A DNA stretch of 64,000 nt from Pseudomonas lurida (GTDB lineage Bacteria > Pseudomonadota > Gammaproteobacteria > Pseudomonadales > Pseudomonadaceae): NCBI RefSeq assembly GCF_002563895.1, contig NZ_PDJB01000001.1:1285501-1349500 (forward strand), in the 5' to 3' direction. Below the pieces are notes generated by a model. It searched no databases. It saw only the letters and a list, made by a program, of their open reading frames with translations, and was not told where the DNA came from. Each line of letters begins with the position of its first letter. Positions within the stretch are counted from its first letter, which is position 1. Shown here piece by piece: positions 4,161 to 19,733 of this stretch. The position numbers and the translations under genes are program-made.

Positions 4161-4252
4161 ATGTGGGAGCGGGCTTGCTCGCGAATGCGGTGGGGCAGTC
4201 AACACTTCAGTGACTGATTTACCGCATTCGCGAGCAAGCCCGCTCCCACATT
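4161..4252. repeat. REP doublet (REPIN-like)
   Basis: ATGTGGGAGCGGGCTTGC at the left and its complement at the right, about 55 bases apart, forming a long potential hairpin between the DsbA-like gene and the arginase-like gene. Confidence 0.9.
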
Positions 4253-4300
4253 GGTCAGTCACCGTCTTCAAGAGTTGTGCTGGCCCGTCCCTTGCATTGA

Positions 4301-4330: not shown

Positions 4331-5251
4331 TTGAACATTCTTGACCTCGACCACAGCCTCACGGGCCAGGCCCCGATTGCCCGGCGCCTGGCCAGTGGCC
4401 GCGCCACCCGTATCGACCTGCTGGACCTAGGGCCCAAGCTGCGCCTGTGGTCCACCGAAAAAACCTGGAAGCGTTTCACCGAACGCCTGGCCCAACGGCC
4501 CCGGCCCACGGATGCGCGGCCGGAAATCCTGTTTGTCGGCTCCGGTGATTATCACCACCTTACGCCGGCGTTTCTCGCCGATCTCAAAGAGCCCATCAGC
4601 CTGATCCATTTCGACAACCACCCCGACTGGGTACGCTTTGCGCCCAAGCGCCACTGTGGTTCATGGGTCAACCGCGCGCTGAAAATGCCGGCGATCAAAC
4701 GCATCGTCACCCTCGGCCCGTGCAGCGATGACCTGCATAACCCGCAACTGCGGGGTGGCAACCTTGGCGCCCTCAAGCGCGGGCATTTGCAGCTGTTTCC
4801 CTGGCAGCATGCGCCTTCCAAGGTCTGGGGGCGGGTAGGGGACGGCGCCGGCCATCGGCAGCAGGAAGACCACCTGCACTGGCGCAACCTGGCCGAGCTG
4901 GAGTGGACGGCTTTCCTGGAGCAGATGATCAGCAGCCTGCCCACCGAGGCGATCTGGATCACCGTCGACAAAGACGTGCTCGCCAGTGAAGACGCGGCGA
5001 CCAACTGGGACCAGGGCGGCATGCGCCTGACTCACCTGCTGCAAGCCCTGCGGGCCTTGGCGGCGCGCAAGCGCATCATCGGCATCGACGTGTGCGGCGA
5101 GTTTGCCCAGCCTGCCTTCAGCAATGCGTTCAAGCGCTGGGAGGCCAAGTCCGACCAGCCGCCGCCGGAGCGCTGGAGCGCGGCGGACCTGCAGCGCAAC
5201 GCCGCCACCAATGAAGCCCTGATCGACCTGTTTGAGGAGCTGTTCCCGTGA
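4331..5251 (+). CDS. Arginase/ureohydrolase-fold protein of unknown substrate
   Basis: A 306-residue protein with the metal-ligand pattern of the ureohydrolase superfamily: GSGDYHH (equivalent of GGDH), HFDNHPDW (D-x-H-x-D) and TVDKDVL (D-x-D). All six usual metal ligands therefore appear to be kept. Family members hydrolyse guanidinium or formimino compounds, but the surrounding sequence is far from classical SpeB or RocF, so the substrate is open. The start is TTG, since no ATG or GTG fits; its Shine-Dalgarno lies in a hairpin. The stop overlaps the GTG of the next gene, an SMR-like membrane protein, which suggests a hydrolase-plus-transporter unit. Confidence 0.75.
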   Translation: MNILDLDHSLTGQAPIARRLASGRATRIDLLDLGPKLRLWSTEKTWKRFTERLAQRPRPTDARPEILFVGSGDYHHLTPAFLADLKEPISLIHFDNHPDWVRFAPKRHCGSWVNRALKMPAIKRIVTLGPCSDDLHNPQLRGGNLGALKRGHLQLFPWQHAPSKVWGRVGDGAGHRQQEDHLHWRNLAELEWTAFLEQMISSLPTEAIWITVDKDVLASEDAATNWDQGGMRLTHLLQALRALAARKRIIGIDVCGEFAQPAFSNAFKRWEAKSDQPPPERWSAADLQRNAATNEALIDLFEELFP

Positions 5252-5628
5252 CCCTGACCGTCGTGTTGCTGGTGGCGTTTTCCATCGTGCTCGATGTGAT
5301 CGGCCAGCTGTGTTTCAAGATCGGCCTGGACCGGTTGCCCGAGCTGGAGGGCGGCTTTCGCCTGAACGCGTTCTGGGGCCAGGTGTTCAATGCGCCGCTG
5401 CTGTGGGCCGGGATCGGCGCCTATGCGATCGAATTCTTCGTGTGGCTCGAGGCCTTGTCCCGTGCACCGTTGAGCCTGCTGTTTCCAGCCGCCGCGCTGG
5501 CGTATTGCGGCGTGGTGCTGGCAGGCAAGGTGGTGCTGGGCGAGACCGTCAGCCGCCGCCGTTGGTTGGGTACGCTGGTGATTACCTTGGGTGTGATGTT
5601 GGTCGCGATTGCGGGGAGTCAGGCATGA
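5248..5628 (+). CDS. SMR/EamA-like four-helix membrane protein, subunit 1
   Basis: A 126-residue protein with four predicted membrane helices, the size of small multidrug resistance and ArnE/ArnF half-transporters. In helix 1 the motif LDVIGQLCFK places an aspartate where EmrE has Glu14 (AEVIGTTLMK), the coupling residue. It starts with GTG overlapping the stop of the arginase-like gene, and its stop overlaps the ATG of a second similar protein. That points to an obligate heterodimer. The substrate is not known. Confidence 0.75.
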   Translation: MTLTVVLLVAFSIVLDVIGQLCFKIGLDRLPELEGGFRLNAFWGQVFNAPLLWAGIGAYAIEFFVWLEALSRAPLSLLFPAAALAYCGVVLAGKVVLGETVSRRRWLGTLVITLGVMLVAIAGSQA

Positions 5629-6029
5629 GTACGCAGACGATGAATACGGGATGGCTGCACGGGCGCTTCGGCACGGTGGTGCTGTGGGCCTTGTTGATCG
5701 GCACCGAAAGCGCCGGCCAGCTGTTTACCAAAGTGGCTGGGGATCAATTGGGCCAGATGGATTTCAACTGGCAATGGCTGGGCGAGGTGGCCCGCAACCC
5801 TGGGATCCTGGCGGCGATTGCCAGTTACATCGGTGCGTTTTTCGTGTGGATGCTGATCCTGCGGCGCAGCAGCCTGTCCTTGGCGTTTCCGCTGAGCTCA
5901 CTGGTGTTTGTGGTGGTGCTGCTGGGGTCGTGGCTGGGGCTGGGAGAACATATCAGCCCGCTGCACTGGGTGGGGGTGGCGGTGATTATCGCCGGCATCG
6001 CCCTCCTGGCCGAAGGCGAAGAAAACTGA
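5625..6029 (+). CDS. SMR/EamA-like four-helix membrane protein, subunit 2
   Basis: A 134-residue partner of the preceding gene, coupled by an ATGA overlap. Four hydrophobic helices are clear. Helix 1 has GTESAGQLFTK, keeping a glutamate at the EmrE Glu14 position. The pair could have inverted topologies, as in other paired SMR proteins; charge counting would be needed to confirm this. Last gene of the three-gene unit; the hairpin at 6036-6067 follows immediately. Confidence 0.75.
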   Translation: MSTQTMNTGWLHGRFGTVVLWALLIGTESAGQLFTKVAGDQLGQMDFNWQWLGEVARNPGILAAIASYIGAFFVWMLILRRSSLSLAFPLSSLVFVVVLLGSWLGLGEHISPLHWVGVAVIIAGIALLAEGEEN

Positions 6030-6067: not shown

Positions 6068-6934
6068 TCAGGGTTTGCGGTGCGCCACCAGGAAGCCCAA
6101 CCCGTGTGACACCGAAATCGCCTTGACCCCCGCCTCACGCTGCTGTTGGGCAATCTCCCGATGAAACGCCTTCACTTTGGTCCAGTGCATCTTCGGCCGG
6201 TAGTGGTGTTCGGCGTGGTAGCCGTTGTTCATCCAGATCAGGTTGTACAGCACGCTGTAGGAACTCACGCCCCAGGCAATCGGCAGGTCAGGGTTGCCAC
6301 CGAAGTGTTCGTAGTATCCGTTGAGCGATGACAGGCACTGGCCCAGGTACCAGAACGGCAATAGCCACAGCACCGCCTGCCAGTTGTAGAACGCCAGGGC
6401 GATATAGAACGCCACGGTCACGCCGATCTCGACCTTGACCCAGCGCGCATCGGCCGGGCGCTTGCGCTTCATTTCGTCATAGAACGGCTTGGGATCGTCG
6501 CGGAAAAAACTCAGGAAGGTATAGGCCCAGGGGTTCTCCGGCTCGCCATTGTGGCCGCGCTGGTAGATCGACAGCGGGTCGATGGTTTTGCCATCCGGGC
6601 CGGGCAGGTCGGCGTTGCCACGGTGATGGCGGTTGTGGATATCGCGGTAGAGCGTCTGGGAAAACCCGATGGTCACCGACAGCAGCAGGTCGAAGGCCCG
6701 GTTCATCGCACGGTGGGTGAAGTAGGCGTTGTGGATCTGGTTGTGGGAGATGCTGTTGATGCTCCACGACAGGCTCACTGCGTAGACCAGAGCCAGCGGA
6801 ACCAGGGCCCACCAGCTCAGGCTGTGGAAAGCGGTAACCAGCCAGATGACAAAGGCGAAATGCGCCAGGCCCAGGGCGATGGGCACCAGGTCCCAGAGTG
6901 AGTGATGCAGCAGGCGGTAAGCGGGGCGAGCCAT
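6068..6934 (-). CDS. Membrane fatty acid desaturase-type protein
   Basis: A 288-residue integral membrane di-iron protein. Three histidine boxes are visible: HNQIH (64-68), HNRHH (100-104) and HAEHH (240-244), with an extra His in YYEHF (210). Hydrophobic spans flank the boxes (residues about 17-58 and 170-200). These are the hallmarks of the fatty acid desaturase/hydroxylase superfamily, which oxidises acyl chains, carotenoids or alkanes. The box spacing is short, so it may act on something other than phospholipid acyl chains. No electron-donor gene is adjacent. Confidence 0.85.
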   Translation of the reverse strand: MARPAYRLLHHSLWDLVPIALGLAHFAFVIWLVTAFHSLSWWALVPLALVYAVSLSWSINSISHNQIHNAYFTHRAMNRAFDLLLSVTIGFSQTLYRDIHNRHHRGNADLPGPDGKTIDPLSIYQRGHNGEPENPWAYTFLSFFRDDPKPFYDEMKRKRPADARWVKVEIGVTVAFYIALAFYNWQAVLWLLPFWYLGQCLSSLNGYYEHFGGNPDLPIAWGVSSYSVLYNLIWMNNGYHAEHHYRPKMHWTKVKAFHREIAQQQREAGVKAISVSHGLGFLVAHRKP

Positions 6935-6990
6935 GAGGAATGTCCTGGAAAAATGGATTCCAGGACCTCATTGCAAACCCCAGACCAACC

Positions 6991-7761
6991 TCAATCGAAC
7001 GTATAGCTGATGGCCGTCTGCACTTGGCCCTGGTTCACGTCGCCGGTCTGCCGGACGATGCTGCTGTCCGCCGCCGAGCCCACCAGGTGTACCCAGCTGG
7101 CGCTGGTCAACAACGACCATTTGGCCGCCAGGGGAAACTCGAAACTCTGGGTCAGCGTCACGTTCTGGAAGCCACCGCTGGCGTTGTACGGGCGAATACC
7201 CGACGCGGCCGCCTCGTTGTCATCCACGCCGAAAAACGTCTGGGTCTGGCGTGCATCGGCGAAGTGCGCCACCAAGCCACTGCTACCGATAATCCCGTTG
7301 CCCAGCGGATAGCCAAGCTCGCCACCGACCTTGCCCAGTGCGCCGCTCTGCGAGTGGCCACCGCCGACGGCTTGGCCCAGCTGTGCATACACCCGCCAGA
7401 AATCAGCCGGCGCGTATTGGATGAAACCCCCTACCTCGGCCATGTCCGACACATTGCGCAGCCCCTGCAGCGCGCCGTTCGAGGTGCGTCCCTGCAGGTA
7501 GTTGATGTACGGGCCGGCGGTAAAGCCGTTGCTGTCCAGGGCGCTCCAGGTCAAGCCGTCATCGGTACTCAGGCTGAGAGTGCCCCAGTCCAGATCGAAA
7601 TAGGGAACGGGCCGCGTTTCGTAGCGGCTGCCGGTAGGGTCATGGGGTTGGTAGCTGACGCCTGCACCGACTTCGCCGGTGATACCGTCGGCCTGAGCCG
7701 CGTTTGAAACGCTCCAGAGGCCCAGTAAACCGGCCAGTGCAGCGCAAGTGATCCTCAACAT
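6991..7761 (-). CDS. MipA/OmpV-family outer membrane protein
   Basis: A 256-residue protein with a signal peptide (MLRITCAALAGLLGLWSVSNAAQA) and alternating beta-strand pattern ending in Phe-Asp (ISYTFD), typical of outer membrane barrels. The strand pattern and length fit the MipA/OmpV family. I chose ATG 7761, which has AAGGAAC at a good distance; the longer frame from 7878 runs through the regulatory palindrome. It is divergent from the sigma-54 operon starting at 7989, and the palindrome at 7834-7860 lies between them, so co-regulation is possible. Confidence 0.75.
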   Translation of the reverse strand: MLRITCAALAGLLGLWSVSNAAQADGITGEVGAGVSYQPHDPTGSRYETRPVPYFDLDWGTLSLSTDDGLTWSALDSNGFTAGPYINYLQGRTSNGALQGLRNVSDMAEVGGFIQYAPADFWRVYAQLGQAVGGGHSQSGALGKVGGELGYPLGNGIIGSSGLVAHFADARQTQTFFGVDDNEAAASGIRPYNASGGFQNVTLTQSFEFPLAAKWSLLTSASWVHLVGSAADSSIVRQTGDVNQGQVQTAISYTFD

Positions 7762-7833
7762 GGTCACTGTTCCTTGATTGATTACGTGCGCATGAACGCG
7801 CGAACGGCCGCCCTCGCGCAAGCACTCATCTTG

Positions 7834-7860
7834 TTTGTAGCAAGCTACAAAAATTGTAGC
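7834..7860. promoter_or_regulatory. Candidate upstream activating site for the sigma-54 operon
   Basis: TTTGTAGC-AA-GCTACAAA is a perfect 8-bp inverted repeat (7834-7851), followed by a third half-site TTGTAGC (7854-7860). It is centred about 100 bases upstream of the predicted start of the -24/-12 promoter, the usual distance for an enhancer-binding protein. The natural candidate ligand is the regulator encoded at 13942-15339. Confidence 0.6.
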
Positions 7861-7923
7861 TCCCACGACACAAATCACCCTTCATGCCGAGCAAAGCCCC
7901 AGCCCCGCTGGGCTTGCGCCAGT

Positions 7924-7939
7924 TGGCACAGTCCCTGCT
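7924..7939 (+). promoter_or_regulatory. Sigma-54 (-24/-12) promoter of the six-gene operon
   Basis: TGGCACAGTCCCTGCT: the GG and GC doublets are spaced exactly as in the consensus TGGCACG-N4-TTGCW. The predicted transcript start is near 7950, about 40 bases before the ATG at 7989. Confidence 0.75.
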
Positions 7940-7988
7940 CTACCCCTGTTGCAAGCGCACAGAGCGCGCTCCTCCTAAGGTAAACGCA

Positions 7989-8690
7989 ATGATCCACTGG
8001 CATATCGTGTGTGACTTCGACGGGACCATTACCCCCACCGATGTCATCGACAACGTCCTCCAACGCTTCGCCGGCCCCGAGTGGGAAACCATCGAACAGG
8101 AATGGCTGGATGGGCATATCGGTTCACGCGAATGCCTGAGCCGCCAACTGGCACTGATCAAGGCCACGCCTTCGCAGCTGCTGGCGTATTTCGACAGTGT
8201 CGAGATCGATCCGGACTTCCCGGACTTCGTCGATCACGTGATCGGCCTGGGCGCGTCCATCGAGGTGGTCAGCGACGGCATCGAGCAGGGCATCGCGCGG
8301 ATCCTGTCACGCAACTACGTGACCTTGCTGCCGATCCTCGCCAACCGCCTGCGCCAGGTCGACCAGAACAGCTGGCGCATCGACTTCCCGTATGCCAGCG
8401 ATGCCTGCCGCGCCGCCTCCGGCAACTGCAAGTGCAAGTCCACCCCGCGCAACAAGCGCGTGCTGGTGATCGGCGATGGCAAGTCCGACATGTGCGTGGC
8501 CTCCACCGCCGACTTCGTGTTTGCCAAGGGCAGCCTCGCCGACTACTGCGTGGCCAACAACCTCCCTCACGCGCGCTTCGACACGTTTGCCGAAGTGCCC
8601 GCATTGCTGGCGCTGCTGCCACAAGGCATTGCCGCCAACGCCACCTCCTTTACTGCTGCTGACAATCAGGAACTCTTCCATCATGTCTGA
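7989..8690 (+). CDS. HAD-superfamily phosphatase, MtnX-like
   Basis: A 233-residue haloacid dehalogenase-type phosphatase. Motif I is DFDGTIT (D9 and D11), motif II is EVVSDG and motif III/IV is VIGDGKSDM. The cap region and size fit the MtnX / phosphoserine phosphatase-like group; it contains a cysteine-bearing stretch GNCKCKS. MtnX works in methionine salvage, but no other salvage gene is near, so a different phosphate ester is likely. ATG 7989 follows AAGG. First gene of the sigma-54 operon; its end overlaps the aminotransferase start by eight bases. Confidence 0.8.
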   Translation: MIHWHIVCDFDGTITPTDVIDNVLQRFAGPEWETIEQEWLDGHIGSRECLSRQLALIKATPSQLLAYFDSVEIDPDFPDFVDHVIGLGASIEVVSDGIEQGIARILSRNYVTLLPILANRLRQVDQNSWRIDFPYASDACRAASGNCKCKSTPRNKRVLVIGDGKSDMCVASTADFVFAKGSLADYCVANNLPHARFDTFAEVPALLALLPQGIAANATSFTAADNQELFHHV

Positions 8691-10077
8691 TATCCGTATC
8701 GCTACCGCCGAAGACCAGGTGCTTCTGGATAAAGAAGCCAAGTACTGCTCCTACGGCGACACCGTCCACTACATCGAGCCGCCACGTATTTTCAGCCGCT
8801 GCGAAGGCTCCTACGTGTGGGACACCGAAGACCAGGCCTACCTTGACCTGCAAATGTGGTACTCGGCGGTCAACTTCGGCTACGCCAACCCGCGCCTGAA
8901 CAACGCGCTGAAACAGCAGATCGACACCCTGCCGCAAATCGCCAGCCAGTACCTGCACAAGGGCAAGATCGAGCTGTCGGAAATGATCGCGGTCGACGCC
9001 AAGAAGAAGTTTGGCCTCGACGGTCGCGTGCACTTCAACGTCGGCGGTTCGCAGTCCATCGAAGACTCCCTGAAAGTGGTGCGTAACGCCACGAACGGCA
9101 AGAGCCTGATGTTTGCCTTCGAGGGCGGCTACCACGGACGTACCCTCGGCGCGTCGTCGATCACCTCCAGCTACCGCTACCGTCGCCGCTACGGCCACTT
9201 CGGCGAGCGCGCGCAGTTCATCCCGTTTCCGTATCACTTCCGTGGCCCGAAAGGCATGACCAAGGAAGAATACGGCAGCCACTGCGTGCAGCAATTTGCG
9301 CGCCTGTTCGAGACCGAATACAACGGTGTATGGGACCCGAAAGTCGGCCAGAGCGAATACGCCGCGTTTTACGTCGAACCGATCCAGGGCACCGGTGGCT
9401 ACGTGATCCCGCCGATGAACTTCTACCGCGAACTCAAGCACGTGCTGGACCAGCACGGCATCCTGATGGTGTCCGATGAAATCCAGATGGGCTTCTACCG
9501 CACCGGCAAGTTGTGGTCGATCGAGCACTTCGACGTGCAGCCGGACGTGATCGTGTTCGGCAAGGCACTGACCAACGGCCTCAACCCACTGGGTGGCATC
9601 TGGGCCCGTGAAGAGTTGATCAACCCGAAAGTCTTCCCGCCAGGTTCGACTCACTCCACCTTTGCCTCCAACCCGTTGGGCACGGCGGTAGGCCTGGAAA
9701 TGTTCAAGATGACCAACGAAGTCGACTACGGCGCGATGGTCATGGCCAAGGGCAAGTTCTTCCTCGAAGGCCTGCAAGACCTGCAGAAACGTTTCCCGAT
9801 CATCGGCGATGTCGACGGCCTGGGCCTGGCGCTGCGCTGCGAAATCTGCGGCCCGGATGGTTTCACGCCGGACAAGGCGACCCTGGACTACATGGTCGAA
9901 GAAGGCATGAAGGGCGACATGGTGGTAGACGGCCAGAAACTCGGCCTGATCCTCGATGTGGGCGGTTACTACAAAAACGTGATCACCCTGGCACCGTCCC
10001 TGGAAATCAGCTATCCGGAAATCGAGCTGGGCCTGAAGCTGCTCGAACAACTGCTGGTGCGGGCGACTCGCCGGTGA
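8683..10077 (+). CDS. Class III PLP-dependent aminotransferase
   Basis: A 464-residue fold-type I aminotransferase of class III. The PLP-phosphate loop segment GGSQS, the pyridine-nitrogen aspartate in SDEIQMG and the Schiff-base lysine K294 (VIFGKALTNG) are present. Class III enzymes act on amino groups away from the alpha carbon, using omega-amino acids, diamines or semialdehydes. Within the operon it could aminate the carbonyl product of the phosphatase step; that is inference. The start at ATG 8683 overlaps the preceding gene, and the end overlaps the next start by four bases. Confidence 0.88.
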   Translation: MSDIRIATAEDQVLLDKEAKYCSYGDTVHYIEPPRIFSRCEGSYVWDTEDQAYLDLQMWYSAVNFGYANPRLNNALKQQIDTLPQIASQYLHKGKIELSEMIAVDAKKKFGLDGRVHFNVGGSQSIEDSLKVVRNATNGKSLMFAFEGGYHGRTLGASSITSSYRYRRRYGHFGERAQFIPFPYHFRGPKGMTKEEYGSHCVQQFARLFETEYNGVWDPKVGQSEYAAFYVEPIQGTGGYVIPPMNFYRELKHVLDQHGILMVSDEIQMGFYRTGKLWSIEHFDVQPDVIVFGKALTNGLNPLGGIWAREELINPKVFPPGSTHSTFASNPLGTAVGLEMFKMTNEVDYGAMVMAKGKFFLEGLQDLQKRFPIIGDVDGLGLALRCEICGPDGFTPDKATLDYMVEEGMKGDMVVDGQKLGLILDVGGYYKNVITLAPSLEISYPEIELGLKLLEQLLVRATRR

Positions 10078-11027
10078 GCCAGGCAGAGATCGACCTCGGT
10101 GAAGGTGATGCCGGCTTCGTTCTCGGTGAAGGTCCGGTCGGGATCCTGTTGATCCACGGCCTGACCGGCACCCCGACGGAATTGCGCCAGGTCGCCAAGG
10201 GCCTGGCCAAGGCGGGTAACTGCACGGTGTACGTGCCCACCCTGGCCGGGCATTGCGGCGACAACAGCGACCTGCAAGCCACCGGCTGGCGCGACTGGTA
10301 CGAAGGCGTGCGCAAGACCTTCGTGGGTGTCAAACAGCGACACCCGCAGGTGTTTGTCGGTGGCTTGTCCATGGGCGCGGTCATGTCGATGTACCTGGCG
10401 TCGGAGCATCCGGGCGAAGTGGCCGGGTTGCTGATGTACTCCACAACGCTCAAGTACGACGGCTGGAGCATCAACAAAATGGCATTCATCACGCCGTTGT
10501 TGATCCGTATCCCGTTTGGTGTGCGTCTGTTCCGCTTTACCGAAAAGCCACCCTACGGCATCAAGAACGAACGTTTGCGTGCCATCGTTGAACGGCAGAT
10601 GAAAGAAGGCGAAAGCAGCGAAGCGGGCTTGTTGACGATGGAAGGGGTGACTGTCCGGGAATTGCACTGGATGAACGCCGTGGTCAAGAAACGCATGCCG
10701 CAGATCAAGGTGCCGGCACTGGTGCTGCACTCCATCGAGGATGACATCACCAGCCGCTGGAACGCGGACTACGTGGAGCGCCATCTCGGCGGGCCGGTGA
10801 CCAAGATCCTGTTGGACAACTGTTACCACATGATCACGGTCGACCTGCAATACCGGCGGGTGATCGAGTTGAGTGCCGACTTCGTCGAGCAGCACGCGGG
10901 CTTAAAACCAACGCGGGTCGATGTGGGAGCTGGTTTGCCCGCGATGCGGACACCTCGGTCTATCAATGAAACCGAGGCGATGCCATCGCAGGCAAGCCAG
11001 CTGCCACACACGCACGTGCACATCTGA
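10074..11027 (+). CDS. Carboxylesterase-type alpha/beta hydrolase with REP-encoded tail
   Basis: A 317-codon frame encoding an Est30-like esterase. It has HGLTGTP (oxyanion loop) near residue 29, nucleophile S99 in GGLSMGA, HSIEDD and NCYHMIT for the acid and base. GTG 10074 overlaps the stop of the aminotransferase. The normal family end is near residue 280; the last 35 residues are translated from the REP doublet at 10921-11010. Either the protein gained a repeat-encoded tail or an original stop was lost. Third gene of the sigma-54 operon. Confidence 0.82.
   Translation: MSQAEIDLGEGDAGFVLGEGPVGILLIHGLTGTPTELRQVAKGLAKAGNCTVYVPTLAGHCGDNSDLQATGWRDWYEGVRKTFVGVKQRHPQVFVGGLSMGAVMSMYLASEHPGEVAGLLMYSTTLKYDGWSINKMAFITPLLIRIPFGVRLFRFTEKPPYGIKNERLRAIVERQMKEGESSEAGLLTMEGVTVRELHWMNAVVKKRMPQIKVPALVLHSIEDDITSRWNADYVERHLGGPVTKILLDNCYHMITVDLQYRRVIELSADFVEQHAGLKPTRVDVGAGLPAMRTPRSINETEAMPSQASQLPHTHVHI
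10921..11010. repeat. REP doublet inside the 3' end of the esterase gene
   Basis: ATGTGGGAGCTGGTTTGCCC at the left and GGCAAGCCAGCTGCCACA at the right, variant head with CTGG in place of CGGG. An inner inverted repeat (CCTCGGT...ACCGAGG) fills the loop. The element is read through in frame by the esterase gene. Confidence 0.85.
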
Positions 11028-11058
11028 TCGGTGCTGGCCCAAGAAATAAGGGAAACCT

Positions 11059-12183
11059 GTGATTACCACCCAAGCGTTCCCGACCATCCGGGCCCTCCAG
11101 CGCAGCGCCTGGAACGACTGTTTTCCGGGTGCCTTGGAGGACTGGGACTATTACGTCGCCGTGGAAAACGCCGCCATTGCTGATTTCCAGTGGCGGTACC
11201 TGGCGGTTTACCAGGATGGAACGCTGGTGGCGGTGGCTGCCGCGTTCATCACTCATTATCGCCTCGACACCACGGTGTCGGGTGCCGGCAAGCGCTTGGC
11301 CGAGCGTGTGGAGCGCCTGTGGCCGGGGCTTTTGCAACTGGGGCTATACGCCCTTGGTTCGCCGGTGGCCGAACGTTGCGACGCCGGTTTCGCCAGCGGC
11401 GTGCCGCACGCGAGTCGTCCGCTGTTGCTCAAGCACCTGCTGCAGGCTGCGCGCCGGGATGCCGATGAGTTTGGCGTCGGCCTGGTGGCGGTCAAGGACG
11501 CGCCGAGCAAAGACCCGCATTGGCTCGAGAGTTGCCGGGCGGCAGGCTTCCAAAGCATGCCGAGCTTGCCCTCGGGCGTATTGCCGCTGCCGTACGGTTC
11601 GGTGGACGCCTACCTGGGCTCGCTGGGTAAATCCACCCGCAAGGACCTGCGCCGCAAACTGCGCGCGCCGGGGCCGCGGGTGGAGTGGCGGCGCAACATC
11701 GACGACGTGCTTCCCGAGGTCATGCGCCTGTACGAGGCCACGCTCACGCGCGCCGAATTGCAATTCGAGCGGCTGCCCGCCGGCTACTTCACTGGCGTGC
11801 TCGAACGGCTTGATGAACGCGCGGTCTGTGTTCTTTACTGGGTGGACGAGCACCTGGTGGCGTTCAACCTGGTCCTGGTGGATGAACACCGGTTGGTGGA
11901 TAAATTCTTCGGGCATGACGTCGAATTCACCCGCGACTACAACCTGTACTTTCGCAGTTGGTTGACCAATGTCGACTACTGTATTGAGCACAATATTGCG
12001 TTGTATGAGTGCGGGCAGGCCGGGTATGCCAGTAAGCTGCGCCTGGGCTGCGAGTTCCAGGGCAACAGTGTGTTTTTCCGCCACCGCAACCGGCTGGTCA
12101 ACGGCCTGCTCATGTTTGTAAAACTGTTTATTCGACCGGATCGTTCCGACCCTGCCATGGCTGCTGCGATAAGCGAAACCTGA
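11059..12183 (+). CDS. FemAB/GNAT-like acyltransferase (peptidogalycan-type)
   Basis: A 374-residue protein of the large GNAT/FemAB-like class sometimes labelled peptidogalycan biosynthesis protein. The C-terminal half has the transferase core: YLGSLGKSTRKDLRRKLR, a substrate segment with LVDKFFGHD, and YECGQAGYASKLRLG. GTG 11059 was chosen because AAGGGAA precedes it. It probably transfers an acyl or aminoacyl group to an amine; the acceptor is unknown. Fourth gene of the sigma-54 operon; its TGA overlaps the ATG of the sensor kinase. Confidence 0.75.
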   Translation: MITTQAFPTIRALQRSAWNDCFPGALEDWDYYVAVENAAIADFQWRYLAVYQDGTLVAVAAAFITHYRLDTTVSGAGKRLAERVERLWPGLLQLGLYALGSPVAERCDAGFASGVPHASRPLLLKHLLQAARRDADEFGVGLVAVKDAPSKDPHWLESCRAAGFQSMPSLPSGVLPLPYGSVDAYLGSLGKSTRKDLRRKLRAPGPRVEWRRNIDDVLPEVMRLYEATLTRAELQFERLPAGYFTGVLERLDERAVCVLYWVDEHLVAFNLVLVDEHRLVDKFFGHDVEFTRDYNLYFRSWLTNVDYCIEHNIALYECGQAGYASKLRLGCEFQGNSVFFRHRNRLVNGLLMFVKLFIRPDRSDPAMAAAISET

Positions 12184-13952
12184 TGATCACCAAGACCCGC
12201 CAGAAAGCCCGCCCCTTTGCCATTTCGCGTTGGAGCGTCCAGCGCAAGCTGGTGCTGGCGTTCTGGTTGGTCAGCGTGATTCCCACCATGATCGCGGCCG
12301 AGTTGGCCGCTACCACGTTGTCGCAGATCTTCGACAGCAACGTGCGCATCTGGCTGCAGGAGTCGACCAAGATCGTCAAGGACGAGATCGGCGACATCCT
12401 TCATGACAACGCACGCATGGCCAAGCTGTTCCTGCGCTATACCAGCCCACCCTCCAACCGGCAGGCGGCCAAGCATGACCGGCTGACCGCCGACATTGCC
12501 GATGCGACGGATATCGACGTGGTCGCACTGATCCGCGTCAGTGACCACAAACTGGTGTTCAGCACCGCCTCCGACGACATCGTCAAGCAGATCAGCCTGA
12601 CCAGCAATGCGGTGTTGCAGACGGTGCAGGTGGCCGGGGTGAGCACCGGCATCGTGGTGTCCACCTTCGAGACCACGCAGGACGGCGTCGATTACCTGCT
12701 GCTGGTGGCTACGTACCTGGACAGCAGTTTCCTCACCAGCGTGGCCGATGTGCATTCCCTCGACCTGCGCCTGTACCTGGCGAACCCCGAGGGTTTCTCC
12801 GAAATCTTTTCGACCCAGCGCTTCGAGGATCACCCCTCGCGCATTCCCAAGAATGTCGAAACCGCGATGCGCAGCACCAAGCAGCCCAGCGAACAGTTCA
12901 CCAATAACTACAGCGGTCTCTACTGGCCAATCTTCAACGACGCCGGCGACTTGCAGGGCGTTATCTTCAGTGGCCTGCTGCGCCACACCAGCCTGGTGGG
13001 GCTGGTGAACCAGAGCAATCTGTTCGTGCTGATCTTCCTGCTCAGCTCGGCACTGTCGTTGGCGGCGGGGGTGTTGGTGTCACGGCGCCTGACCAAGCCG
13101 TTGCGCGACCTGTCCCAAGGCGTGAGCGCGGTGATCTCCGGCAATTACGCGCACCGTGTGGTGGTCAGCGGCGGTGACGAACTGGCGCAGTTGAGCAGCA
13201 CCTTCAACCATATGACCGAGCGCCTGGGAGAGTTGCATCACCTCGAAGCCCAGTTGCGCCGGCGTGATCGCCTGCACGCCCTGGGTGAAGTCGCCATGGG
13301 CCTGGCCCACGAGATCCGTAACCCGCTGGGCATCATCAAGACGGCCACGCAACTGCTGCACCGCCGCGCCGACCTGCCGGACACCGACAAGCGTCATCTG
13401 GAATACGTGATCAGTGAAGTCAGCCGCATCAACGACCTGATCACCGAGTTCCTCGACTTCGCCAAGCCCAACCCGCCGTTGCGCGTGTTGCAGCCCGTGC
13501 GCCCGCTGGTGGAGGAAATACTCGGCTTCTGTGCCCCGGAACTGGCCACCCACAACATCGACGCGCACATCGATGACCAGGCGCCGGGGGCGACGATCTA
13601 CGCGGACGCCAAGCAGCTCAAGCAGGCATGCCTCAACCTGATTATCAACGCCATCGATGCAATGCCCGAAGGCGGGCGCCTGACCCTGGGCATTCGCACG
13701 CACGACGACAACACCGTGATCAGCATCGCCGACACTGGCCAGGGCATTCCGGCGGACATGATCGAGCGTATCTTCACGCCATTCGTCACCACCAAGGCGT
13801 CAGGCACCGGGCTGGGCCTGGCCAAAGTCTATTCGATCATGGAAAGTCACGACGGCAGCATCGAATGTGCCAGCGAGAAAGATGCCGGCGCCACCTTCAG
13901 CCTGTACATTCCGGCGATTGGCGAAGACGACGAGGACAGTCATGACGCATAA
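12183..13952 (+). CDS. Membrane sensor histidine kinase
   Basis: A 589-residue kinase. TM1 is about residues 24-48 (LVLAFWLVSVIPTMIAAE), then a ~230-residue periplasmic sensor region, TM2 about 280-301, a HAMP domain, the phospho-acceptor H376 in LAHEIRNPLG, and an HATPase domain with NLIINAID (N box), DTGQGIP (G1) and GTGLGL (G2). It overlaps the sigma-54 response regulator that follows by 11 bases, so they form a cognate pair. Its ligand may relate to the substrate or product of the four upstream enzymes. Confidence 0.9.
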   Translation: MITKTRQKARPFAISRWSVQRKLVLAFWLVSVIPTMIAAELAATTLSQIFDSNVRIWLQESTKIVKDEIGDILHDNARMAKLFLRYTSPPSNRQAAKHDRLTADIADATDIDVVALIRVSDHKLVFSTASDDIVKQISLTSNAVLQTVQVAGVSTGIVVSTFETTQDGVDYLLLVATYLDSSFLTSVADVHSLDLRLYLANPEGFSEIFSTQRFEDHPSRIPKNVETAMRSTKQPSEQFTNNYSGLYWPIFNDAGDLQGVIFSGLLRHTSLVGLVNQSNLFVLIFLLSSALSLAAGVLVSRRLTKPLRDLSQGVSAVISGNYAHRVVVSGGDELAQLSSTFNHMTERLGELHHLEAQLRRRDRLHALGEVAMGLAHEIRNPLGIIKTATQLLHRRADLPDTDKRHLEYVISEVSRINDLITEFLDFAKPNPPLRVLQPVRPLVEEILGFCAPELATHNIDAHIDDQAPGATIYADAKQLKQACLNLIINAIDAMPEGGRLTLGIRTHDDNTVISIADTGQGIPADMIERIFTPFVTTKASGTGLGLAKVYSIMESHDGSIECASEKDAGATFSLYIPAIGEDDEDSHDA

Positions 13953-15339
13953 CATTCTGGTAGTCGACGACGAACCCAAGCTCTGCGACCTGCTGGCGTC
14001 GGCCCTGGGCCAGAACAACGTGCAGGTGTTTATCGCCGGCAACGGCCTGCACGCGCTCAAGGTGCTGGAGCAGGAAGACATCGACCTGGTGATCAGCGAC
14101 TGGCGCATGCCGGGCATGGACGGGCCGGCGCTGCTGGCCGAGATCAAGGTGCGCTACCCCCACGTACCCGTGATCGTGATGACCGCCTACAGCACCGTGA
14201 AAAACGCCGTGCAGTCGATGCGCAACGGCGCCTACGACTACATCGCCAAGCCGTTTGACATCGACGAGCTGGACATCACCGTGGCCAAGGCCCTGCAGTT
14301 TCGCGACATCATGCGCGACAATGCGCGCTTGCGTGCCGAGTTGGACGAGCATGCGCAGTTCGACAGCCTGGTGGGCGACAGCCCGGCATTTCGCAAAGTG
14401 CTGCAAGCAGTGGACTCGGTGCGCGACAGCAGCGCTACCATCCTGCTGACCGGCGAAAGCGGTACTGGCAAGGAAATGGTCGCCCGCGCCATCCACAAGC
14501 ACGGCAGCCGTGCTGACAAACCGTTCGTGGCGGTCAACTGCGCGGCCATCCCGGAGGGCCTGCTGGAAAGCGAGATGTTCGGTCACCGCAAAGGCGCGTT
14601 CACCGGTGCCGTGGCTGATCGGGTAGGGCGCTTCCAGCAAGCCGACAAGGGCACGCTGTTTCTCGACGAAGTGGGCGATATGCCCCTGGCGTTGCAAGCC
14701 AAGATTTTGCGTGCATTGCAGGAGCGCGTGATCGAACCGGTAGGCGATCCCCGCGAGCGCAAGGTGGATGTGCGGGTGATCGCCGCCACCAACAAGAACC
14801 TGCTGGACGCGGTGGCCAACAAGGAGTTTCGCGAAGACCTGTATTACCGCCTCAACGTGTTCCCGATCCCGTTGCCCGCGCTGCGCGAGCGGGTGGAAGA
14901 CATTGCGCCACTGGCCCGTCACTTCGCCCAGACCCTGAGCGCCACCGCCGGCAAACGCATTACCGGTTTCAGTGCCGAAGCGTTGCAGGCCATGGCGGCG
15001 TATCACTGGCCGGGCAATATCCGCGAGCTGCAGAACTGCGTGGAGCGCGCGACCATCGTTGCGGCGTCGCCAGTGATCGAAGACATCGACCTGCCGGGTT
15101 ACCTGTTTGCGTCGAAGCCGAGCGAGGGCGGCGTAACGGCCATCCTCAGCGACGGGCCGGGCATTCCCCAGGATTTGGACGCGGCGCTGGCGGAGGTGGA
15201 GAAGGCCTATATTCTGGCGGCGTTGCAGGAGAGCAATGGGGTGCAGGCTGCTGCGGCGGCGAAGATCGGGATTTCCGAGCGCAGCTTCTGGTATCGCCTG
15301 AAGAAGTTGGGCATCCAGGTCGACAAAATCGTGCGCTGA
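13942..15339 (+). CDS. Sigma-54-dependent response regulator (NtrC family)
   Basis: A 465-residue enhancer-binding protein. Receiver domain with D9, D10 and phospho-acceptor D53 (ISDWRMPG); AAA+ domain with Walker A GESGTGKE, the sigma-54 contact motif GAFTGA intact, Walker B GTLFLDEVGD; C-terminal Fis-type helix-turn-helix (AAAAAKIGISERSFWYRLKKL). ATG 13942 was chosen because it starts the receiver domain cleanly. The presence of a -24/-12 promoter and palindrome in front of the same operon suggests that it activates its own operon. Confidence 0.92.
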   Translation: MTHNILVVDDEPKLCDLLASALGQNNVQVFIAGNGLHALKVLEQEDIDLVISDWRMPGMDGPALLAEIKVRYPHVPVIVMTAYSTVKNAVQSMRNGAYDYIAKPFDIDELDITVAKALQFRDIMRDNARLRAELDEHAQFDSLVGDSPAFRKVLQAVDSVRDSSATILLTGESGTGKEMVARAIHKHGSRADKPFVAVNCAAIPEGLLESEMFGHRKGAFTGAVADRVGRFQQADKGTLFLDEVGDMPLALQAKILRALQERVIEPVGDPRERKVDVRVIAATNKNLLDAVANKEFREDLYYRLNVFPIPLPALRERVEDIAPLARHFAQTLSATAGKRITGFSAEALQAMAAYHWPGNIRELQNCVERATIVAASPVIEDIDLPGYLFASKPSEGGVTAILSDGPGIPQDLDAALAEVEKAYILAALQESNGVQAAAAAKIGISERSFWYRLKKLGIQVDKIVR

Positions 15340-15360: not shown

Positions 15361-15547
15361 CAACTGTGGGATCTGGCTCGCCCGCGAAGGCGGCCTGACA
15401 GCCGACCGCAATCTACCGGTAAGGCCACGATCCAACTGTGGGAGCGGGCTTGCCTGCGAAGGGGGCCTGACAGCCGACCGCAATCTACCGGTAAGGCCAC
15501 GATCCAAATGTGGGAGCGGGCTTGCCCGCGAAGGCGGCCTGACAGAC
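15361..15547. repeat. 72-bp tandem repeat with REP heads (2.6 copies)
   Basis: Copies begin at 15361, 15433 and 15505, an exact 72-base period. Each holds a GTGGGAKCKGGCTYGC REP head plus the shared spacer CGGCCTGACAGCCGACCG...CTACCGGTAAGGCCACGATCC; the third copy is cut short. All heads have the same orientation. Confidence 0.9.

Positions 15548-16348: not shown

Positions 16349-16349
<1 letters not shown>
16011..16349 (-). CDS. glpM: GlpM family inner membrane protein
   Basis: A 112-residue protein with four hydrophobic segments. The run KTKNYYIAGLVPLFPTFALIAHYIVG is the signature of GlpM, first described in P. aeruginosa in connection with glycerol metabolism and alginate. Its biochemical role is unknown. 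The ATG shares its first base position with the stop of aauR (16349), so it may be co-transcribed as the last gene of the aau operon. Confidence 0.82.
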
Positions 16350-17694
<1,345 letters not shown>

Positions 17695-17698
<4 letters not shown>

Positions 17699-19599
17699 GT
17701 CGACTCAGCTTTTTGAGCGCCCGCCAGAGGCAGGCACAAGACAAAGGCCGTTCCACCACTGGCCGGGTGTTCCACGGCGAGGGTGCCGCCGGTGGCCGCC
17801 GCCAGGCTGGCGGACAGCGTCAGGCCCAGGCCCAGGCCTTGCTCGCCGGGTTTGGTGGTGAAGAACGGTTCGAACAAATGCTTGCGTGCCTCGGGGTCGA
17901 TACCGTGGCCATTGTCGCGCACTTGCAGGCGGTATTTGCCCTCGCTGCTGCTGCCTTCCAGCCAGAGTTCGGGGGCCGGTTGCGCTTGCATGGCGTCGAG
18001 GGCATTGCCAATCAGGTTGACCAGGATCTGTTCCAGGCGCGTCTGGTCGATTTGCAGTTGGGCGTTGGAAAAGTCACGGTGCAGGGTCAGTGGCTGGCTG
18101 TCCAGGCGTGCGCCGAGTACTTGGAACGTGGCGTCCACCGCCTTGGCGAGGCTGGCTTCGCCCTGGTCGTCACCACGCCGGGCGAAGGAGCGCAGGCTGG
18201 CGGTGATGCGGCCCATGCGGTCGATCAGTTCGTTGATGGTCTTGAGGTTGGCGCTGGCCGTGTCCAAGGCGCCGCGCTCAAGGAAGCGCACGGTGTTGCC
18301 GGACAGGGTACGCAGCGCTGCCAGCGGCTGGTTCAATTCGTGGGCAATGCTGGTCGACATCTGGCCGATGGCTGCCAGCTTGCCGGCCTGCACCAGCTCA
18401 TCCTGGGCGCGGCGCAGGGTTTCCTCGGCCTGGCGCCGTTCACGAATCTGGCCCTTGAGCCGTTCGTTGCTGGCGCGCAGGTCGGCGGTGCGTTCGGCAA
18501 TCCGCCTCTCCAGTTGGCTGTTGGCTTCCTGCAGGGCTTCACGCGCGGCGAGGCGGGTGGCGATAACTTTGCGACGCTCGTTCCAGGCAATCAGCAAAAA
18601 CGCCACCAGGCCAAACGCAACCGCCACCAGGATGCCCTGGTTGATCGCTGCGCGGCGCAGGTCGTTGAGCGGGGTGAGCAGGGTGAAATTCCACGGTGTG
18701 TCGTTGAGCGGGCGGGTTTGGGCCAGGTAACTGACCTCATGCTCGTCGTTGACCACTTCGCTGTTGGCCGGAAAGGTCAACTTCTCGGTGCCTTCGTTCA
18801 GGCGTTCGCGGGCCAGGGGTTCGAGCTCGTTGAGCGTCGCCCAGTAATATTGGAGGCTGTGGGCCAGGCGGTCCTTGGTGTCATCGCTTAGCGGGCGCAC
18901 GGCCTTGAGGCGGCGGGCCGGGTCGCTGGAGAGAATAATGATGCCGTTCTCATCACTCACGAAGGCTTCGAGACGTGCGCGTTGCCAGCGTTCTTCCAAC
19001 GCTTCGAGGCGTACCTTGACCACGGCGACGCCGATGATCTTGCCGTGCTCTTCCAGGCCGTGGGCCAGGTAGTAGCCGGGTTCGCCGTTGGTGCTGCCGA
19101 TGCCATAGAAACGCCCAGGCTGGCCACGCACGGCGTTCTGGAAATACGCGCGGAACGACAGGTCTTCACCCTGGTAACTGTCGGCATCGCGCCAGTTGCT
19201 GGTGGCCAGCACGCGGCCGGTGGTGTCCATCACGTAGATGGCCCGACTGCGACTGCGTCGGTTCAGGCCTTCGAGGTAGTCGTTGACGGTCTTGCGGGTT
19301 TCCTGGTTCGGGTCGGCCAGCAGCGTGGAGACGCTGGACTCCAGTTCCAGCAGGCTGGGCAGGTAGGTGTATTTGCTCAGTTCGCTTTCGACAGTGCGGG
19401 CGTGCAGCTCCAGTTGGCGTTCGCCGGTGTCGCTGAGGGTGCGGATGCCATAGTACTCGCTGATCCAGAAGCCGATATAACCCAGGCCGATCATCAGGGC
19501 GATGATCAACGGTGGCAGGAACAGTTGGCGGATCAGGCGTGGTTTCACGGCAAGTGATGGCGGTGCGGCGCGAAATTGGTTGGGGTCGCATTTCATCAC
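17695..19599 (-). CDS. aauS: Sensor histidine kinase AauS
   Basis: A 634-residue DctB-type kinase. TM1 is about residues 28-48, then a ~280-residue double-Cache periplasmic region (YVMDTTGRVLATSNW), TM2 near 330, a coiled-coil with AERTADLRASNERLKGQ, phospho-acceptor H420 (SIAHELNQPL), and HATPase boxes NLIGNALDAM, DNGHGID and GLGLGL. It senses glutamate or aspartate in P. putida homologues. ATG 19599 is the first start in the frame; an internal start 1 codon later is equally possible. Confidence 0.88.
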
Positions 19600-19642: not shown

Positions 19643-19733
19643 ATGTGGGAGCGGGCTTGCTCGCGAAGGCGGTGGGTCAATGAAAAATGTACCGACTGAC
19701 ACTACGCCTTCGCGAGCAAGCCCGCTCCCACAC
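19643..19733. repeat. REP doublet (REPIN-like)
   Basis: ATGTGGGAGCGGGCTTGCTC and its complement flank about 50 bases in the gap between aatP and aauS; it may shield aauSR from aatJQMP read-through. Confidence 0.9.

Follow-up and report, generated by a model that had tools for sequence, protein, structure and literature searches.

A probably sigma-54-controlled gene cluster of Pseudomonas lurida and its possible role in making an amine-bearing envelope molecule

What does a two-component pair known for flagellar rewiring normally regulate, and what do the enzymes encoded beside it make? The question is raised by positions 7834..15339 of a 64,000-nucleotide stretch of Pseudomonas lurida DNA, referred to here as the window, in which a preliminary description saw an unrecognised six-gene operon encoding its own sigma-54 activator. 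Genes of all six families that it named are present: a HAD phosphatase, a class III aminotransferase, a hydrolase, a FemAB/GNAT-like transferase, a sensor histidine kinase and an NtrC-type regulator. Position 7834 is not the start of the cluster, because an arginase-like gene and a pair of ArnF/ArnE-like genes with a sigma-54 site of their own lie further upstream, and the cluster looks like a set of about nine genes conserved in soil Pseudomonas, larger than the six first described. The regulator itself is already well studied, its SBW25 counterpart PFLU1132 being a familiar example, from experiments, of how a transcription factor can be rewired; what we propose here is an operator at which it would natively act, the promoter that would be its main target and a pathway of nine genes. 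We put at about even the chance that the locus, under its own two-component switch, serves to make an amine-bearing and probably lipid-linked molecule of the envelope.

A known regulator and its likely native promoter

The kinase open reading frame (ORF) is 1,770 bp long and encodes GEVAM at residues 368-372, A375, the H-box HEIRNPL at 376-382 and A547, while the regulator carries GAFTGA at residue 218 and Asp at residue 111. These residue numbers are the ones published for PFLU1131 and PFLU1132 of P. fluorescens SBW25 (PMC10621929). The published passages on PFLU1127-PFLU1132 share with the window the GNAT gene (PFLU1130), the 1,770-bp kinase, the activator, aauR (PFLU1134) and a predicted RpoN site before PFLU1127/8/9 (PMC10482368, PMC10621929). 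ORF length, the reported residues, the GNAT gene before the pair and the aauR-type gene after it all agree, and on the strength of published lengths, residues and flanking genes the window kinase and regulator are the orthologues of PFLU1131 and PFLU1132. The pair is thus not unrecognised. It has been published as a promiscuous route of flagellar rewiring, with the statement that its native targets are unknown (PMC10621929), and the published passages on it describe no operator, no link to arginase or EamA genes and no pathway. The regulator has the full make-up of an NtrC-family two-component activator, with a receiver, an AAA+ domain carrying GAFTGA, a Fis helix-turn-helix, a paired kinase and a -24/-12 target promoter.

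Where would such a regulator act? A near-consensus -24/-12 promoter had been placed before the first gene, and it is confirmed at 7923-7939. Scored out of 13 with a threshold of at least 10, a sigma-54 site precedes the HAD gene in 75 of 76 Pseudomonas-type loci and in 0 of 76 shuffled controls (one mononucleotide shuffle per locus); the 76 loci are related by descent, so that neither this count nor that of the palindrome in them, given below, is one of independent events. The palindrome described near the promoter is also real (7834-7851), but the operator is better read as GCTACAA-N3-TTGTAGC at 7844-7860, which overlaps it. The conserved upstream block contains two overlapping inverted repeats, of which this core is the best conserved, and the core ends 63 bp ahead of the -24/-12 site in the window. 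An exact TTGTAGC-N0-6-GCTACAA lies upstream of the HAD gene in 48 of the 76 loci. Within the P. lurida genome, TTGTAGC-NN-GCTACAA is found exactly once, never with one mismatch, and at 11 more places with two mismatches against 7 for the reversed control; the uniqueness of the palindrome suggests a small regulon.

The core repeat is kept in other genera, as far as Nevskia (GCTACAAAATTTGTAGC in L115, GCTACAGAATTTGTAGC in L114 and GCTACGCAATTTGTAGC in L118). It is weaker in L148 and L149, where 0-1 of 500 shuffles equal it, degenerate in L160 (10 of 500) and unconvincing in L141 (16 of 500). Where the regulator is missing, in 15 distant loci, the best repeat is matched by at least 183 of 500 mononucleotide shuffles. 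The sigma-54 site before the HAD gene behaves alike: it is present in all nine distant loci that carry the regulator, three of them near-Pseudomonas (L110-L112), against two of the 15 without it (Fisher p=4.2e-5, in a comparison that omits five of the 27 distant loci, L144, L145, L153, L156 and L163). Of the two exceptions, L159 has another enhancer-binding-protein-like gene nearby and L157 is a 4-kb contig; L149, whose contig ends before the regulator position, stands outside the test and has both sites. This tracking of the regulator by operator and sigma-54 site is the best argument for placing the HAD promoter under the regulator of the cluster, and sigma-54 control by that regulator, as first suggested, is well supported by comparison across genera.

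How does this agree with experiments in SBW25? There, the authors assign PFLU1127/8/9 and PFLU1130/1/2 to separate operons, with a Rho-dependent terminator predicted at the junction and an RpoN site predicted ahead of PFLU1127/8/9. A second-step 1.59-kbp deletion fuses both operons and puts PFLU1131/2 behind the PFLU1127/8/9 promoter; compared with the delta-fleQ strain, PFLU1131 is up by 4.26 and PFLU1132 by 3.79 log2 in this fusion. PFLU1130/1/2 are also raised in the mutant that carries the first-step kinase change, according to the published passages on the pair (PMC10621929). Judged by position, PFLU1127/8/9 would be the HAD, aminotransferase and hydrolase genes. The fusion and expression data fit a promoter before the HAD gene that is active once the pair is activated, and the two-operon data speak against a simple six-gene operon.

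In the window, a hairpin formed by a pair of repetitive extragenic palindromic (REP) elements lies at the same point as the SBW25 operon boundary. For the segment 10915-11020 the folding energy is -59.6 kcal/mol (z -6.1), a value that none of 200 shuffles equalled. The hydrolase is conserved to about residue 275, with the matches of its relatives ending mostly at 272-291 and in a minority at up to 316, and its last 40 or so residues in the window read through the REP pair. The pair therefore appears to extend the hydrolase frame, making the 31-base gap to the FemAB gene a local trait and setting a structured element between the two halves. The tight spacing first described holds for the window, where the overlaps measure 8, 4, 1 and 11 bp and a single 31-base gap occurs, but that gap is not a general feature. 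The 64-kb window holds 18 REP matches, with REP or REPIN-like elements at 4163-4249, 10923-11007, 15366-15531 and 19645-19731; one REP pair lies between dsbA and the arginase promoter.

A larger cluster with further sigma-54 sites and dispensable members

At E<=1e-100, 71 of 249 Pseudomonas genomes carry the aminotransferase; at E<=1e-130 it occurs in 6 of 369 genomes of the class, the P. lurida genome included, and in 25 of 398 genomes of the phylum, five of them Pseudomonas. Thirteen window genes were mapped on 103 loci, comprising the window's own, 75 Pseudomonas-type loci and 27 distant ones; large neighbours of the distant loci that look generic (CstA, UvrA-like, DUF3683/FAD oxidase, G6PD, helicase and ETF-QO) were not counted. 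A search for a conserved neighbourhood had been recommended, and the gene set does recur across Pseudomonas and in distant genomes. Of the 64 long Pseudomonas loci, 63 carry the kinase and regulator along with the aminotransferase, and 63 have a divergent mipA no more than 600 bp from the HAD gene. The exception for mipA is L051 (Pseudomonas libanensis), where positions 8310-11225 hold a second HAD-aminotransferase-hydrolase copy with no regulator, mipA or FemAB nearby, in the same strain as the full locus L059. Among the 64 long loci, 39 hold arginase, FemAB and eam1 together and 12 hold the desaturase.

Besides the HAD promoter, two further sites are conserved (Table 1). The region upstream of the arginase gene scores 11-12 of 13 in 41 of 41 loci, and that upstream of the desaturase 10-11 of 13 in all 14 loci with a readable upstream region; where arginase is missing, a site of at least 10 precedes eam1 in 12 of 14 such loci. 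The locus thus probably comprises three sigma-54 units. The FemAB-kinase-regulator part has no conserved sigma-54 site of its own, and scattered sites of at least 10 look like background (FemAB 5/57, histidine kinase 2/71, aauR 6/70 and dsbA 2/40 loci). Some distant loci also have sites of at least 10 before the aminotransferase, hydrolase, eam1 or arginase gene. Sigma-54 control of mipA is unsupported, with such a site in 0 of 75 loci. The operator was likewise sought elsewhere, and no exact TTGTAGC-N0-6-GCTACAA lies upstream of arginase (0/41), eam1 (0/55), desaturase (0/14), FemAB (0/57) or the histidine kinase (0/71); in the arginase and desaturase upstream alignments the sigma-54 core alone is well conserved and the operator is absent.

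Table 1. Features of the cluster, with positions in the window
Feature	Position	Strand	Basis
Sigma-54 (-24/-12) site TTGGCACAGTCCCTGCT, HAD-aminotransferase-hydrolase unit	7923..7939	+	conserved score
Palindrome first reported, TTTGTAGCAAGCTACAAA	7834..7851		
Conserved upstream block GCGCAAGCACTCATnTTGTTTGTAGCaAgCTACAAAAaTTGTAGC holding the operator	7816..7860	.	75-locus alignment
Sigma-54 (-24/-12) site CTGGCCCGTCCCTTGCA, before arginase-like gene	4280..4296	+	conserved score
Sigma-54-like site TTGGTCTGGGGTTTGCA, before desaturase	6972..6988	-	conserved score
Arginase-family hydrolase	4331..5251	+	PF00491, metal-ligand motifs
eam1, half-size EamA transporter, ArnF-like	5248..5628	+	NCBIfam ArnF 53.7 bits
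eam2, half-size EamA transporter, ArnE-like	5628..6029	+	NCBIfam ArnE 39.3 bits
Fatty acid desaturase, occasional member	6068..6934	-	PF00487
MipA/OmpV-type outer-membrane protein, divergent	6991..7761	-	PF06629, 126 bits
HAD-IB phosphatase, MtnX-like	7989..8690	+	TIGR01489/NF007103 scores; DFDGT and GDGKSD
Class III PLP (pyridoxal phosphate) aminotransferase-fold enzyme	8683..10077	+	PF00202, 243 bits
Alpha/beta hydrolase, monoacylglycerol-lipase-like	10074..11027	+	PDB 4lhe/3rli
REP pair (REPIN-like), inside hydrolase 3' end	10923..11007	.	two REP matches, 10923-10944 and 10986-11007
FemAB-like double-GNAT transferase, position of PFLU1130, accessory	11059..12183	+	PF04339/PF13480
Sensor histidine kinase, PFLU1131 orthologue	12183..13952	+	Pfam; residues equal to published ones
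NtrC-type sigma-54 activator, PFLU1132 orthologue	13942..15339	+	Pfam; GAFTGA, D111

Are the arginase, EamA and FemAB genes members of the system, or is the HAD-aminotransferase-hydrolase set under the regulator the sole functional unit, with unrelated genes beside it? Gene order permutes between Pseudomonas groups and the arginase promoter has no operator, as a loose neighbourhood would predict. Elsewhere in the phylum, in other families, homologues of arginase, FemAB and EamA genes nevertheless lie near the aminotransferase again, in different order: among the 27 distant loci, arginase and FemAB are both found in 10 and at least one EamA gene in 13. A single open frame holds both the hydrolase and part of a FemAB protein in two of them (L157 and L159). 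Arginase is also nested within FemAB. FemAB is present in all 46 of the 249 Pseudomonas genomes that have arginase, and 12 of the 58 genomes with FemAB have no arginase (both at E<=1e-40); the aminotransferase is found in 57 of those 58, the exception being G236. Taken together, these regularities make a chance neighbourhood quite improbable. The 12 FemAB-only genomes also rule out that FemAB and arginase strictly go together. Within the 71 aminotransferase genomes the association (45/0/12/14; Fisher p=4e-8) is inflated by shared ancestry, and a FemAB match (E<=1e-40) is missing in 14 of them. FemAB and arginase thus appear, from these patterns of presence, to be accessory, nested and dispensable members.

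What the enzymes may make

The HAD protein has the DFDGT and GDGKSD motifs and comes close to TIGR01489 (81.3 bits against a cut-off of 81.55); an identity as MtnX phosphatase is rejected by its equivalog scores (NF007103, 107.6 against 292; also 91.5 against 303.2). Its gene start is best placed at 7989, with an AAGG motif seen by eye just before it and an alternative ORF from 7884. The PLP enzyme has Thr at the position of the GabT carboxylate arginine (presumably the Arg398 equivalent) in 103 of 103 cluster members aligned to GabT, and a GabT-type aminotransferase binding an alpha-carboxylate is rejected accordingly. The class III comparison drew on twelve genome matches, of which L169, L170 and L177 were left out and L178 is the cluster enzyme itself. 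The likeness to MtnX and to GabT/PH0138-type enzymes therefore extends to the HAD and PLP folds and catalytic motifs, whereas the equivalog scores fall below their cut-offs and the carboxylate arginine is replaced by Thr. In one distant locus (L163, 9412-11732), a sulfotransferase gene directly follows a 54% relative of the aminotransferase.

The arginase-like protein belongs to the arginase family by PF00491 (37.5 bits against a cut-off of 22). Its GSGDYHH, DNHPD and DKD motifs are intact, and D73, H75, D95, H97, D99, D213 and D215, which we take to be the metal ligands, are invariant in a 36-sequence alignment. Published work on peptide arginases (OspR and its kind, acting on ribosomally synthesised and post-translationally modified peptides) offers a precedent, in that an arginase-like enzyme there produces ornithine on a substrate that is carried. 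The FemAB protein is predicted to have the double-GNAT Fem fold, its model being closest to the Fem-type aminoacyl transferases FemA, FemX and Sbb17, with acyltransferases next; among Fem-type structures Foldseek places Sbb17 nearest, a peptide synthase that depends on aminoacyl-tRNA and was crystallised with streptothrisamine. It is only 9-19% identical to the Fem ligases and to MprF/aminoacyl-phosphatidylglycerol synthase, and at 374 residues it lacks the MprF-type membrane domain. The two half-size EamA proteins resemble the Arn system as distant ArnF and ArnE matches, and an amine-bearing envelope product is proposed here too. Unlike a true ArnE/ArnF flippase, the window pair scores below both curated cut-offs (eam1, 53.7 bits against 99 for ArnF; eam2, 39.3 against 92 for ArnE), and no other Arn family is found among the window genes scanned. 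Four ArnF-family matches occur in the genome, eam1 and eam2 among them, and one elsewhere exceeds the cut-off and has a weaker neighbour.

How might these proteins work together? In the pathway that we propose, the dCACHE-like sensor kinase would phosphorylate the activator, which would bind GCTACAA-N3-TTGTAGC and drive the HAD, aminotransferase and hydrolase genes, while the second sigma-54 promoter would drive the arginase-like gene and the ArnF/ArnE-like pair. The HAD and PLP enzymes would respectively dephosphorylate and aminate a precursor other than a standard alpha-amino or keto acid. Acyl chains are probably involved in the precursor, since some distant copies carry a ketosynthase and an acyl carrier protein (ACP): a FabF-like ketosynthase lies close by in 7 of the 27 distant loci (one checked by Pfam/NCBIfam), and six of these seven show an ACP match next to it (two confirmed by Pfam). 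Neither occurs in the 76 Pseudomonas-type loci at E<=1e-5 or in the window at 1e-3. The Fem-type transferase would add an aminoacyl or acyl group, the arginase-like enzyme might optionally trim it, for example from arginyl to ornithinyl, the EamA pair would flip the product, and the lipase-like hydrolase would turn it over or release it. The FemAB and arginase step would be a dispensable tailoring of an amine-bearing, lipid-linked, flipped product.

The lipid and envelope character is suggested by the ketosynthase/ACP neighbours, the ArnEF-like pair, the Fem fold, exporter genes (of ABC/HlyD/OEP type, adjoining L114, L115 and L118 from Nevskia/Hydrocarboniphaga and not shown by L116) and the desaturase with its own sigma-54 site. 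A DegT/DnrJ/EryC1-type aminotransferase, of what we take to be the family of ArnB, is present in 9 of the 27 distant loci (L117, L143, L147, L150-L154 and L156), and all nine are among the ten with arginase and FemAB. The bolder idea of a second Arn-like route, yielding a new, positively charged aminolipid of the envelope with a PLP-installed amine, aminoacyl-tRNA-dependent extension, arginyl to ornithinyl trimming wherever arginase occurs, flipping by ArnEF paralogues and a sigma-54 switch recruitable for flagella, seems to us unlikely. Serinol-type and N-acyl headgroups were weighed as well and set aside. The preliminary description had envisaged a small pathway making or remodelling an acylated amine. 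A pathway around an amine is retained, its chemistry being conjectural, but acylation is dropped as a required core step: FemAB is dispensable and its predicted fold is nearer to aminoacyl transferases than to acyltransferases.

Could the locus instead serve catabolism? The sensor would then detect an external amine, phospho-amine or amino acid that the HAD enzyme, PLP enzyme and hydrolase degrade, the EamA proteins would move substrate or by-products, and sigma-54 control would follow the usual carbon and nitrogen scheme. Sigma-54 two-component systems often govern utilisation, and this speaks for such a role, as does the aauR-type gene that most of the long Pseudomonas loci contain. The periplasmic region of the kinase is modelled as dCACHE/PAS-like in a fold search of its predicted structure, and the matches include amino-acid and amine chemoreceptor domains such as PctD, TlpQ and PctA. 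The recurring genes, however, include no uptake ABC transporter or dehydrogenase, and the ketosynthase/ACP genes, the Fem-type transferase, the ArnEF-like pair and the exporters point to synthesis and export. We consider a catabolic role doubtful, although it retains a real claim.

A synthetic role leaves the nature of the product to be weighed. A specialised-metabolite cluster would make a small diffusible aminated and aminoacylated compound, exported by the EamA pair, rather than an envelope lipid, and the patchy distribution (71 of 249 Pseudomonas genomes), Sbb17 as the top Fem-type structure in Foldseek and the ketosynthase/ACP neighbours would all suit it. The high conservation of the PLP enzyme (89-100% over its Pseudomonas matches) and the ArnEF similarity seem more envelope-like, and such a compound is in our view rather unlikely. 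For the envelope pathway, a comparison is offered by MipA/MipB-ParRS of P. aeruginosa, for which published passages link a MipA-type outer-membrane protein with a two-component system and with envelope stress (PMC10936184). By this analogy the divergent MipA might be a co-sensor, although no mipB was noted beside it and the activator type differs from that of the polymyxin-sensing system.

In limited literature searches, judged partly by titles and abstract openings, no described pathway with this gene set was found, and the earlier statement that none is known holds within those bounds. Should the product be an aminolipid, the locus would represent a further inducible modification of the envelope, involving a PLP enzyme of unusual kind and tailoring of the arginase type.

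Beyond the cluster, a second sigma-54 two-component pair, aauRS-like (presumably the system named aau), lies in opposite orientation at 16349-19599 of the window. Other groups of Pseudomonas have their aauR-type gene at the opposite side of the cluster.

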